NCBI GenBank assembly: GCA_903839675.1
Contig: CAIMDB010000008.1
Coordinates: forward strand, 62,001-126,000
DNA: 64,000 nucleotides
Direction: 5' to 3'
Source: an uncultured Sphingomonadales bacterium
GTDB lineage: Bacteria > Pseudomonadota > Alphaproteobacteria > Sphingomonadales > Sphingomonadaceae
This document shows positions 16,339 to 21,755 of this stretch, in pieces. Every line of letters begins with the position of its first letter. The first letter of the stretch is position 1. The notes beneath the pieces are model-generated. The model searched no databases and was not told where the DNA came from. It was given only the letters and a program-made list of their open reading frames with translations. The position numbers and the translations under genes were made by a program.

Positions 16339-17925
16339 ATGGCCAAGCAGTTTCATCTCGCCGACCTGTTTGAAACCGTGGCCGCCACGGTGCCGGACCG
16401 CATTGCCATCCGCGCGGCCAGCGCCACGTTGACCTATGCCGAGCTCAATGACAGGGCGGAGCGGTTGGCCGCAGGTCTTGCCGCGCAAGGCGTGACGCGA
16501 GGGGATACGGTCGGGCTATACCTGATGAATGGGCCAGCGTTTCTGGAGGGCTTTATCGCCGCCGTAAAGCTTGGTGCGGTGCCGTATAACGTCAACTACC
16601 GGTACCGCGCGGAGGAACTGCGCTACCTTTTTGCCAATGCCGAAAGTGCAGCAATCCTCCACGGTGCCGAGTTTTCAGACGTGGTGCGCGACGTGCGCGG
16701 CGATGTCCCGACGTTGAAGGTCAGCGTGGCCGTTGACGATGGATCGGGCGCCGATATCTCTGGCTCGCTGGCCTATGAGGACCTGCTGAAGACGGACCCC
16801 GCAGGCCCCTATGACCGAGATGAGGAGGATATCCTTCTCACCTATACCGGCGGCACGACGGGCATGCCTAAAGGCGTCATGTGGCCGCACCGTGCCTTCC
16901 TGTTCGCCTGTGCCGGTGGCGCAGGCTATTTCAATCCGGCAGGTCCGGTTGTGGTTCCGGAAGACATCGCGGACCGCGCCGCCAATGGGTATCCATTGAA
17001 GATGATGCCGCTGGCACCGTTGATGCACGGTGCTGCCATTTGGGCGACATGGTCTGCGGTCCTCAATGGACTGACGATCATCCTCGATGAGAACAAGACC
17101 TTCAACCCCGAACATATCTTCGACATGGCAGAGCGTGAAGGCGCGAACCTGCTGCAATTCGTCGGCGATGCCATGGCGATCCCATTGCGGGATACTCTGA
17201 CGGCCAACCCCGGCCGCTGGAATTTGCAGTCCGTCGTCAACCTGGGGTCAGGCGGGGCCGTCTTCTCACAGCATGTGAAGGATGATCTGAAAGCGCTTGT
17301 TCCGTCGGCTTCCATCACAGACGGCATGGGCACATCGGAAACCGGCATATCCGGCATGGCCGAACCCAGCGCGGAAGGCGTGATGCGCCTACCCGCGACC
17401 GACAGCCAGAAGGTCGTTCTCGACGACCGCTTTGCCGAGGTTGGCGAGACGGGCCTCATTGCGCGCACGGGCAACACGCCTGTCGGTTATTTTGGCGATC
17501 CGGTGAAGACGGCTGAAACCTTCAAGATGATCGACGGCAAACTCTGGGCGGTCAGCGGTGACAGCGGCCGTCTGGATGGCGATGAGAAGATCACCATGTT
17601 CGGGCGCGGGTCGACTTGCATCAACACAGGTGGTGAGAAGGTCTTCCCTGAAGAAGTGGAAGAAGTGCTGCGCGCGCACCCGGCTATCTTGGATGCCGTG
17701 GTGGCCGGACAAAAGGACGACCGCTGGGGCGAACGTGTGATTGGCATCGTCTCCCTGCGCGCAGGACAGCACAAGCCAGATGATATTGCGTTGAAAGCCT
17801 TTCTGACTGAGCGACTGGCCGGGTATAAGGTGCCCAAGGCTGTGATCTGGGTCGATGCCGTCAAGCGCTCGCCTGCAGGTAAGCAGGATTATCGTTGGGC
17901 CAAGGAGGTTGCGGCAAAGGCATGA
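16339..17925 (+). CDS. AMP-dependent acyl-CoA synthetase/ligase
   Basis: LTYTGGTTGMPKGVMW, TDGMGTSETG, STCINTGGEKVFPEEVEE, KRSPAGKQDYRWAKE. Confidence 0.93.
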   Translation: MAKQFHLADLFETVAATVPDRIAIRAASATLTYAELNDRAERLAAGLAAQGVTRGDTVGLYLMNGPAFLEGFIAAVKLGAVPYNVNYRYRAEELRYLFANAESAAILHGAEFSDVVRDVRGDVPTLKVSVAVDDGSGADISGSLAYEDLLKTDPAGPYDRDEEDILLTYTGGTTGMPKGVMWPHRAFLFACAGGAGYFNPAGPVVVPEDIADRAANGYPLKMMPLAPLMHGAAIWATWSAVLNGLTIILDENKTFNPEHIFDMAEREGANLLQFVGDAMAIPLRDTLTANPGRWNLQSVVNLGSGGAVFSQHVKDDLKALVPSASITDGMGTSETGISGMAEPSAEGVMRLPATDSQKVVLDDRFAEVGETGLIARTGNTPVGYFGDPVKTAETFKMIDGKLWAVSGDSGRLDGDEKITMFGRGSTCINTGGEKVFPEEVEEVLRAHPAILDAVVAGQKDDRWGERVIGIVSLRAGQHKPDDIALKAFLTERLAGYKVPKAVIWVDAVKRSPAGKQDYRWAKEVAAKA

Positions 17926-19643
17926 GCGTCATCGACCCCGTCTTTGCGAAAGTCACCGCCCCCGGCTCCCCCTTTGAGATTGGCGAGCGCGATGGCCTGC
18001 GCCAGTTTGTCGCCGCACCCGCTGATCTGAGCGCGCTCATCGATGCCGCGCGCCGCCATGGCGACAAGACCTTCATCGTAGAAGACGACCGGCGGTTGAC
18101 CTTCGAACAAGTCTTCCAGTGGCGCGACCGGCTGGTGCCCCTGCTCGGCATCCAACGCGGCGACCGCGTCGCCATCTGCATGCGCAACCGCACGGAATGG
18201 ATCATCGCTTACATGGCGGCGGTGAAGGCCGGAGGCGTCCCGGCCCTGCTCAACTCGCGCGGATCGCCAGCTGAGCTGGTCGCCATGATCGACGAAGTTA
18301 CGCCCACGCTGGTCCTGGCCGACAGCGAACGGGCGGCGCTGATCCGCGATGGAGGGTATGCAGGGCGGATGCTGGATTTGACCTCCCCATCGACTATCGA
18401 TTTGGAGGGGGACCACCAGAAGGACGGTGGAGGGGCAAACGATGGTGCCATGGCCCCTCCGTCAGTCGCTGGTGCGACTGCCACCTCTCCATCGCAAGTC
18501 GATGGGGAGAACAACGGCGCCCATCCCGACGACCCAGCTTCCATCCTCTTCACCTCCGGCACGACCGGCCGCGTCAAAGGTGCCGTGCTCTCCCACCGCA
18601 ACTTGACGACGGGCCTGCTCTCGATGCAGCTTTCAGGCGTCATGGTGCTGCACCATATGGCGGCGAAATATGGTATGGAGCCGGAAGCGCTGATGGCCGC
18701 CGCGCCGCCGCAGGCGGTGCTGCTCGTCTATCCGCTGTTCCACATTTCCGGACTTGGTTCGGCGTTTCTGTCTCCGCTGTTTTCGGGCACCAAGATTGTC
18801 ATCATGCGCCGCTGGGATGCGCAGGAGGCCATTCGCCTGATCAAGGACGAAGGCATCACCATGTTCACCGGCGTGCCCACCATGTTGTGGGATGTGCTGA
18901 ACAACGCGAAGGTCTCTGCGGCGGACCTCTCTGGTCTGCGCAATGTGGCCAGCGGCGGACAGGCCCTGCCCGTCAATCTGCTCGAGGAAATCCGCGCGGT
19001 TTGTCCGCAGGCGGCGATGGGCACGGGCTATGGCATGACCGAATGCTCCGGCGCGATTGCGCAGGCGGTGGGCGATGATTTCACCCGCCAGCCCTCTTCT
19101 GCAGGGCGCGTCCTCCCGCTTGTCGATGTCCGCATCGAGGCACCGGATGGCAGCATCCTGCCGGAGGGCGAAACAGGCGAGATCGTCGTGCGCGGCGCGC
19201 AGATCATGCAGGGCTATTGGAACCGGCCGGAAGATACCGCCGTCGTCCTTTCCGCTGATGGCTGGCTGAAGACCGGCGACGTCGGCTATGTGGATGAAGA
19301 AGGCTACGTCTTCATCGTGGACCGCAAAAAGGACATGGTCATTTCCGGCGGCGAAAACATCTATTGCGCTGAAGTCGAGCGCGCGATGGGCGAAATTGCC
19401 GGTATCACGGAATGCGCGGCGTTTGGCATCGCGGACGAGCGGCTTGGCGAACTGCTGGTCGCGGTTGTCGTCGCGAATGGTTTGACCGAAGAGGCGATTT
19501 GCGGGGATGTCGGCGAAAGGCTTGCCCGTTACAAGGCACCGGGCCGCGTTGCCTTTTCACCTGATCCCCTGCCCCGCAATGCGGTGGGCAAGGTCGATAA
19601 GATTAAGCTCAAGGCCCTGTGGCCCACCCTGATCGGAGACTGA
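17922..19643 (+). CDS. AMP-dependent acyl-CoA synthetase/ligase with an internal insertion
   Basis: ILFTSGTTGRVKGAVLSH, GTGYGMTECSG, DRKKDMVISGGENIYCAEVE; ATGA overlap with the upstream gene. Confidence 0.93.
   Translation: MSVIDPVFAKVTAPGSPFEIGERDGLRQFVAAPADLSALIDAARRHGDKTFIVEDDRRLTFEQVFQWRDRLVPLLGIQRGDRVAICMRNRTEWIIAYMAAVKAGGVPALLNSRGSPAELVAMIDEVTPTLVLADSERAALIRDGGYAGRMLDLTSPSTIDLEGDHQKDGGGANDGAMAPPSVAGATATSPSQVDGENNGAHPDDPASILFTSGTTGRVKGAVLSHRNLTTGLLSMQLSGVMVLHHMAAKYGMEPEALMAAAPPQAVLLVYPLFHISGLGSAFLSPLFSGTKIVIMRRWDAQEAIRLIKDEGITMFTGVPTMLWDVLNNAKVSAADLSGLRNVASGGQALPVNLLEEIRAVCPQAAMGTGYGMTECSGAIAQAVGDDFTRQPSSAGRVLPLVDVRIEAPDGSILPEGETGEIVVRGAQIMQGYWNRPEDTAVVLSADGWLKTGDVGYVDEEGYVFIVDRKKDMVISGGENIYCAEVERAMGEIAGITECAAFGIADERLGELLVAVVVANGLTEEAICGDVGERLARYKAPGRVAFSPDPLPRNAVGKVDKIKLKALWPTLIGD
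18383..18509. repeat. Palindromic repeat element inside a coding sequence
   Basis: Terminal inverted repeats CTCCCCATCGACT (18383-18395) and AGTCGATGGGGAG (18497-18509); nested hairpin CAGTCGC-TGGT-GCGACTG (18463-18480). Confidence 0.85.
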
Positions 19644-19647
19644 CACC

Positions 19648-20514
19648 ATGGCCTACCCCACCGACATCAAGATCATCGACTGTATGCTCGGCATTCCAGA
19701 AGCGGAGGACCGGTCGGACTGGTTCACCAGTTTCCGGCCTCTGATCAAGGATGCGCAGACGCTCGAGCAGTTTTCGATGCCCGCGCAGTACATGTTCAAG
19801 GATGTGCCGCAGACAGGCCATGCCGATGACTATGTGAAGTGGACCGTCGATCAGATGGACCGGTTCAATATCGACAAAGCGCTGATCGGCTGGAACGACA
19901 ATGACACGTCACGCCGCGCCAAGGAAATGTATGGCGACCGCTTCTTCTTTGACGTGCCGTGCGACCCGAACAAGGGCGTGGACGAAGTCCGCCGCATCAA
20001 GAAGCTGCACAGCGAAGTCGGCATTTCCGCCATCAGCGTCTTCCCCTCGGGCACGCTGCCGCAGGTGGCGATCAACCATAAGTATATGTTCCCGCTCTAC
20101 ACCTGTGCGGCGGAACTCGGCATTCCCATCCTGCTGAACGTCGGCATCCCCGGCCCGCGCATCCCGATGGAGACGCAGAAGGTGGAGCATCTCGACGAGG
20201 TCTGCTGGTTCTTCCCGGACCTGAAGATCGTGATGCGCCATGGGGCGGAGCCATGGGAAGCACTTGCGGTCAAGCTGATGCTGAAATGGCCGAACCTCTA
20301 TTATTCGACGAGCGCCTTTGCCCCGAAGCACTATCCCAAAGCGATCATCGATTATGCAAACACCCGTGGGGCCGACAAGATCATCTATGCCGGTTATTTC
20401 CCCATGGGATTGAGCCTTGATCGCATCTTCAGCGACATGCAGAATGTGCCTTTCAAGGATGAAGTCTGGCCGAAGTTCCTGCGCGAAAACGCAGTGAAGG
20501 TTTTCGGTCTGTGA
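19648..20514 (+). CDS. Amidohydrolase family 2 protein (ACMSD/decarboxylase-like)
   Basis: KIIDCMLGIPEAEDRSDW..., VMRHGAEPWEALAVKLMLKWPNLYYSTSAFAPKHYPKAIIDYANTRGADKIIYAGYFP. Confidence 0.8.
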   Translation: MAYPTDIKIIDCMLGIPEAEDRSDWFTSFRPLIKDAQTLEQFSMPAQYMFKDVPQTGHADDYVKWTVDQMDRFNIDKALIGWNDNDTSRRAKEMYGDRFFFDVPCDPNKGVDEVRRIKKLHSEVGISAISVFPSGTLPQVAINHKYMFPLYTCAAELGIPILLNVGIPGPRIPMETQKVEHLDEVCWFFPDLKIVMRHGAEPWEALAVKLMLKWPNLYYSTSAFAPKHYPKAIIDYANTRGADKIIYAGYFPMGLSLDRIFSDMQNVPFKDEVWPKFLRENAVKVFGL

Positions 20515-20621
20515 TGTGAGGGGAGCCGGGAAGTCTGCTCCCATTTCAACAGTGCCAGACGGTGAGACAACCCCGCTGTCCGGTCCGCCTTCCAAGCGAA
20601 GGCCCATGAAGGAGACACATC

Positions 20622-21755
20622 ATGTCTGATGCAGAAAATAGCGCCGCAAGCGATGCCCGCACCGCGCCCGTCGCTGTCTGGCAGATCCTTGATAAGTTGC
20701 GCGGTCAGGACCTCATTGACTGGCGTCTGGCGGAAACAAAGGGTCGCGCCTCCATTGAGGAACGCAATTTAGATATCGGCTTTCCGTTTGGCTGGTACCC
20801 CGTTGTCCTGTCCAAGGATCTGGCGGTCGGCGAAGTGAAGCCATTGCGCTACTTCTCCACTGATCTTGCCATCTGGCGCGGCGAGGACGGGCAGGTCCGC
20901 ATGGTCGATGCCTATTGCAAGCATCTGGGCGCGCATATGGGCCATGGCGGCAAGGTGCACGGCAATCTTCTGGAATGCCCGTTCCACGCCTGGCGCTATG
21001 ACGGCGAAGAAGGCGTGGTGAAGGAAATCCCTTATGCCAAGGCAATCCCGCCGCAGGTAAAGCGCAAATGCACCCGCACCTGGCATGTGGTGGAAGCCAA
21101 TCGCTGGGTTTGGATGTGGTATCACCCACAGGACGTGGCTCCATTGTTCGAAGTCGAGCATCTACCGGAAGCGACTGACCCAGAGTGGACGGACTATGAC
21201 GTCCATGAATGGAATGTCTGGGGCTCCATCCAGAACATGGCCGAAAACGGCGTCGATGTGGCGCACTTCAAATATATCCACGGCACCGCGAACGTCCCGC
21301 TTGGCGATCTGCGCTGGGGCGACTGGGGTCGCGGCGCCGATGTGAAAGCGAAGATGGGCACACCCTGGGGCGAGGTCGATGGCTGCATCAGCTATGACAC
21401 GATGGGCCCGGGGCAGAGCTGGACGCGCTTTACCGGCATTTCGGAAACGCTGCTTGTGGCGTGCATCATCCCGGTGGAACTGGACCATGTCCATGCCCGC
21501 TTCTGCTTCACCCAGCCTAAGGCACAGGCCGAAGGCGAGCGTGCGGGTGTGGCCAAGGCGATCATCCGCGACATCTGCAAGCAGTTTGATCAGGACAAGG
21601 TCGTTTGGGACCGGCAGCGATATCAGGCCAACCCCATCATCTGCGATGGCGACGGTCCTATTCCGCAGTTCCGCAAATATTATGCGCGCTATTACGCAAC
21701 GCCGAACGTGACGCCCGAAGGCGACAATGTCAGTCCGATCCGGGCCGCTGGATAA
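20622..21755 (+). CDS. Rieske [2Fe-2S] oxygenase, KshA-like
   Basis: CKHLGAHMG...CPFHAWRY Rieske ligands and NGVDVAHFKYIH mononuclear iron motif. Confidence 0.88.
   Translation: MSDAENSAASDARTAPVAVWQILDKLRGQDLIDWRLAETKGRASIEERNLDIGFPFGWYPVVLSKDLAVGEVKPLRYFSTDLAIWRGEDGQVRMVDAYCKHLGAHMGHGGKVHGNLLECPFHAWRYDGEEGVVKEIPYAKAIPPQVKRKCTRTWHVVEANRWVWMWYHPQDVAPLFEVEHLPEATDPEWTDYDVHEWNVWGSIQNMAENGVDVAHFKYIHGTANVPLGDLRWGDWGRGADVKAKMGTPWGEVDGCISYDTMGPGQSWTRFTGISETLLVACIIPVELDHVHARFCFTQPKAQAEGERAGVAKAIIRDICKQFDQDKVVWDRQRYQANPIICDGDGPIPQFRKYYARYYATPNVTPEGDNVSPIRAAG

Follow-up and report, generated by a model that had tools for sequence, protein, structure and literature searches.

A REP-like palindromic dimer lying in frame within an acyl-CoA synthetase gene of a sphingomonad

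We analyzed a 64,000-nucleotide stretch of DNA from an uncultured Sphingomonadales bacterium (hereafter the window), in which an intact acyl-CoA synthetase (AMP-binding) gene contains a 127-bp palindromic element (Table 1). An earlier note, made from the sequence alone, had described this element with the same boundaries, 13-bp terminal repeats and nested hairpins, in frame ahead of the P-loop. Results agreed: the host ORF stays open throughout the element and gives a product of 573 aa, the terminal arms (CTCCCCATCGACT and AGTCGATGGGGAG) are an exact inverted match, and RNA folding of the element strand gave -74.1 kcal/mol (z = -6.8), a stability reached by 0 of 200 shuffles. Relatives of the host enzyme in the PDB are FadD5, FadD13, and 4CL. 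The gene lies in a same-strand run (window 16339-21755) made of two AMP-binding synthetases, the ATG of the host gene overlapping the stop of the upstream one by 4 bp, and then of two ORFs (19648-20514 and 20622-21755) that read as amidohydrolase-like and Rieske-type oxygenase-like. The nearest named relative in our searches was Chakrabartia godavariana (L114), which has a loop identical to the one in its congener G009, and we accordingly treat the genus as Chakrabartia or a near neighbor.

Table 1. Host gene and parts of the element (window positions), and other in-frame copies of the family (locus positions).
Feature	Position	Strand	Remarks
Acyl-CoA synthetase (AMP-binding) host gene	17922..19643	+	ORF; Pfam AMP-binding 2.1e-80, AMP-binding_C 7.4e-12
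REP-like dimer, 127 bp, in frame	18383..18509	+	Encodes SPSTIDLEGDHQKDGGGANDGAMAPPSVAGATATSPSQVDGE, residues 155-196
Left outer hairpin	18383..18407	+	Family consensus CTCCCCATCGNCTTGCGATGGGGAG; 2 mismatches in window copy
Left inner hairpin	18412..18428	+	Family consensus ACCATCC...GGATGGT; left REP-like unit, degenerate tag
GGAGGGG...CCCCTCC stem	18429..18460	+	Around variable spacer between both units
Right inner hairpin, CGTC-tagged REP-like unit	18459..18483	+	CCGTC-AGTCGC-TGGT-GCGACT-GCCA; compared with text of PMC3733652
Right outer hairpin	18485..18509	+	CTCTCCATCG-CAAGT-CGATGGGGAG
AMP-binding P-loop motif TSGTTGRVKG	18552..18581	+	Shortly downstream of insert
dnaE2	L044:1999-2125 (G010), L061:1999-2129 (G011)		In frame, same site in both congeners
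Aminoacyl-tRNA synthetases	L063:1999-2117, L235:2014-2123, L239:2012-2124, L283:2001-2042		In-frame copies or variants
2-Oxoacid dehydrogenase E2 linker	L057:1999-2126 (G010)		In-frame copy
truB	L074:2000-2026 (G005)		In frame, one hairpin only
DNA methylase/Mrr fusion and nuoF	L231:3440-3550 and L234:2011-2121 (G010)		In-frame copies

In structure, two ~57-bp units, each containing two hairpins, face each other head to head across a variable spacer of ~20 nt, and the left and right halves of the element are inverted relatives of one another. Half-units were also found on their own. The copies share one plan, consisting of an outer hairpin, an inner hairpin, GGAGGGG, the ~20-base spacer, CCCCTCC, the CCGTC...GCCA inner hairpin, and a second outer hairpin. 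Among the copies, the fold made of local hairpins had 96.4% of cells paired, 13 pairs with double-sided changes and a covariation score of 0.160, against 93.5%, 9 pairs, and 0.113 when the outer arms were paired end to end; the two end-to-end helices proper hold only 2 double-sided pairs. Compensatory changes maintain the local hairpins, while support for pairing of the 13-bp terminal repeats is weaker, and an end-to-end cruciform was rejected as the conserved fold for this reason. As the local hairpins covary better, the exact terminal repeats are a by-product of two inverted units. Of the single palindrome with terminal inverted repeats first proposed, the exact arms are retained, but the whole is a dimer of REP-like units.

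We also looked for further copies, as the earlier note had advised, and found them both in the window's genome (G000, 2.9 Mb) and in congeners. The second full copy of G000 (81% identity, E = 4.5e-27) sits between two genes that converge on it, grpE and one of MaoC type, both named from reading their translations, and a third place in the same genome gave a weaker match. The same-genus genome G010 yielded 23 BLAST matches and 17 full copies that could be aligned (L043-L060), far above other congeners. A covariance model built from 25 full copies had matches in 9 further genomes of the genus and, beyond it, in two more genera of the family, with up to 50 matches per genome counting both strands, hence about half as many places; these counts are possible underestimates, at most 137 candidates having been scored per genome. 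Presence of the element is lineage-specific: the grpE/MaoC copy is missing from the corresponding region of G002, G005, G006, G007, and G008, an intergenic region whose fast change prevents the empty site from being delimited precisely. Across 13 congeneric genomes, a search for RAYT-type genes (PF01797, Y1_Tnp) gave no match, control genomes being positive, and a RAYT partner for the element was therefore rejected. The copy number of G010 suggests a lineage-specific expansion that proceeded without a RAYT gene.

Considering these results, the feature is very probably a dispersed non-autonomous repeat, a head-to-head REP-like dimer most similar to the CGTC-tagged REPs, that occupies a tolerant linker of the acyl-CoA synthetase. 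As described in the text of Di Nocera, De Gregorio and Rocco 2013 (PMC3733652), CGTC-tagged REPs are mostly alpha-proteobacterial and mostly arranged as head-to-head dimers, carry CGTC at one end of a palindrome with a stem of 8-9 bp opening with A-T pairs and a loop of 4-5 nt, end in a short unpaired tail that is usually CCA, and have no dedicated transposase. The same text reports that some lie within genes, among them dnaE2, aminoacyl-tRNA synthetase and truB genes, partly in sphingomonads. In our family, the right unit carries the CCGTC tag in 22 of the 25 aligned copies, that of the window included, followed after the stem by a GCCA tail, and the tag ends face the spacer in all 25. The right stem is of ~6-7 bp with a loop of 3-5 nt, and most copies begin it with AT, the window copy with AG. 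Differences from the published description concern the left tag, which is degenerate (CACC), the inner stems, shorter than 8-9 bp, and an additional pair of outer 10-bp hairpins within which the dimer is nested; an acyl-CoA synthetase host is also absent from the main text of that article. Tag, tail, dimer form, sphingomonad hosts, lack of a dedicated transposase (here, of PF01797) and the three kinds of host gene all fit, so we regard the family as a new example of a described kind of repeat and not as a new system. The element likely belongs to the CGTC class, as judged against the textual description of the class in PMC3733652.

The parallel with Rickettsia palindromic elements that had been drawn from the sequence is apt, as PMC3733652 counts two families of R. 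conorii, RPE-4 and RPE-6, among the CGTC REPs, RPE-1 being a longer, separate family according to its text. As in Rickettsia, palindromic repeats are found here in frame within functional coding genes, to which they add tens of residues; on the other hand, the host is different and the link to RPE families is an indirect one, through the classification of PMC3733652. REPINs and BIMEs associated with RAYT resemble the element in that they consist of a pair of inverted REP units separated by a spacer, are dispersed and are mostly intergenic, but the GTAG tag and the cognate RAYT that define RAYT-REPs and REPINs are both missing from what we found: the element has no GTAG tag, and the 13 genomes of the genus have no Y1_Tnp gene.

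A non-autonomous element of ~127 bp with inverted ends and dispersed copies could also be a MITE, a kind of miniature transposon that is bounded by terminal inverted repeats and mobilized by a DDE transposase acting in trans. We consider this unlikely, since the local hairpins covary more than the end-to-end pairing, half-units are found alone, and 22 copies gave no convincing target-site duplication (2.59 versus 2.24 +/- 0.22 bp). For the REP-like dimer, spreading would instead involve a hairpin-forming, probably single-stranded intermediate, with a mobilizing enzyme presumably encoded elsewhere than beside the element.

We then considered what the insertion does to the protein. Same-genus orthologues (n = 8) are 544-551 aa long and the closest six 549-551 aa, compared to 573 aa in the window, and the interval from DLT to ILFTSGTTG counts 53 residues instead of the 29-31 of close relatives. 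The element itself encodes ~42 residues, but the net gain is ~23 residues and not the ~40 initially claimed, or 69 bp over the closest length class from a 127-bp element, because the element occupies a pre-existing linker, upstream of the P-loop, that varies in length and sequence across all orthologues. The ~58 bp of old linker may have been lost either with the insertion or at another time. In the AlphaFold model (mean pLDDT 81.6), residues 162-196 fall below 50 between well-folded strands, and the insert is therefore predicted to be a disordered loop. Leaving the loop out, the window and its closest orthologue G005 differ by dN 0.014 and dS 0.317; for the window branch alone, with G002 as outgroup, arithmetic on the three pairwise values gives dN ~0.004 and dS ~0.135. 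The enzyme carrying the insert is under purifying selection. The copy was probably retained in the gene for being open in frame and forming a hydrophilic, disordered loop right before the P-loop strand, where it would have little effect on catalysis and probably be harmless. Nothing that we found points to a function of the insert itself.

Selection might instead keep the element for regulation, its strong hairpins attenuating translation or transcription. The predicted fold is indeed highly stable (z = -6.8, as above), and REPs elsewhere have been proposed as RNA elements according to the text of PMC3733652, but close orthologues do without the element, the left hairpin of the window copy carries mismatches, and translating ribosomes are expected to open the fold, making this role quite improbable. 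An ordinary low-complexity enzyme loop with palindromes arisen by chance would fit the variability of the linker in all orthologues, but has practically no chance of being correct in view of the 81% match at an unrelated intergenic locus, the tens of family copies and the compensatory changes. An HDV-like (CPEB3) self-cleaving ribozyme, to which Rfam pointed at window 18419-18491 (24.6 bits, E = 0.001 in 1.8 kb), is also extremely improbable: the score falls short of 35, the curated cut-off, and a match absent from all of the 17 other loci searched is not a property of the family, so that we judged this single sub-threshold match to be due to chance.

To return to the REP-like dimer, we compared the insertion site among orthologues. 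The intact palindrome was absent from all those compared; with other copies present in the genome, neither of the two outcomes that the earlier note had named as refuting its reading was observed. The tree of the gene without the loop, (G009,(G008,((window,G005),G002))), was well supported. At the same linker, G009 carries a decayed right half-element (nhmmer E = 4e-7, a match as good being obtained in 0 of 500 shuffles), and C. godavariana a decayed half-element. The linker of G008 is of the type found in G010 and G012, and those of G005 and G002, the two closest orthologues, are of a third type with weak similarity to the element. The family HMM found no match in the loop of these two, and alignments with the element were equaled by 8-34 of 500 shuffles; the reading of their loop as a decayed element was thus set aside as only suggestive. 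Two histories are conceivable: either the site was hit twice, or a single old insertion was replaced in G008 and decayed in G005 and G002.

Other in-frame copies fall within or between known Pfam domains. We retained as intragenic those cases in which a copy is flanked or overlapped by Pfam domains of the ORF that spans it; many long ORFs over other copies matched no Pfam family and, being probably spurious, were left out. In dnaE2, G010 and G011 have ~42 extra residues where other congeners, lacking the element, have almost nothing, a pattern of lengths as expected of a clean insertion, in contrast with the acyl-CoA synthetase. The aminoacyl-tRNA synthetase hosts are glyS in G016, glyS in G010 (at a different site), leuS in G011 and a class I enzyme in G016.

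All five full-length cases (the window copy, both dnaE2 copies, glyS of G016, and E2) have one orientation and one entry frame (SSPS-CDGEGD-...). This frame has the lowest hydropathy of the six and also the smallest number of hydrophobic residues. In 20 other copies, some of them possibly intragenic themselves, 71 of 120 frames were open and 17 of these 71 were the SSPS-CDGEGD frame. The agreement in frame of the four independent cases would then have a probability of ~0.003, a value calculated post hoc on few cases. As a tentative idea, about which we are rather doubtful, REP dimers might repeatedly supply this clade with disordered protein linkers under selection for frame, the full-length intragenic survivors sharing one orientation and the least hydrophobic frame and their remnants outlasting speciation, as the half-element of C. 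godavariana would.

The phenomenon known from Rickettsia, palindromic repeats turned into protein sequence, is extended by these data to a sphingomonad genus of free-living type, and the question of what mobilizes CGTC REPs is kept alive by the present family. Since close orthologues without the repeat exist, this small set of cases would allow both the cost of such inserts and the choice of reading frame to be measured. The tryptic peptide expected from the insert of the window is DGGGANDGAMAPPSVAGATATSPSQVDGENNGAHPDDPASILFTSGTTGR.
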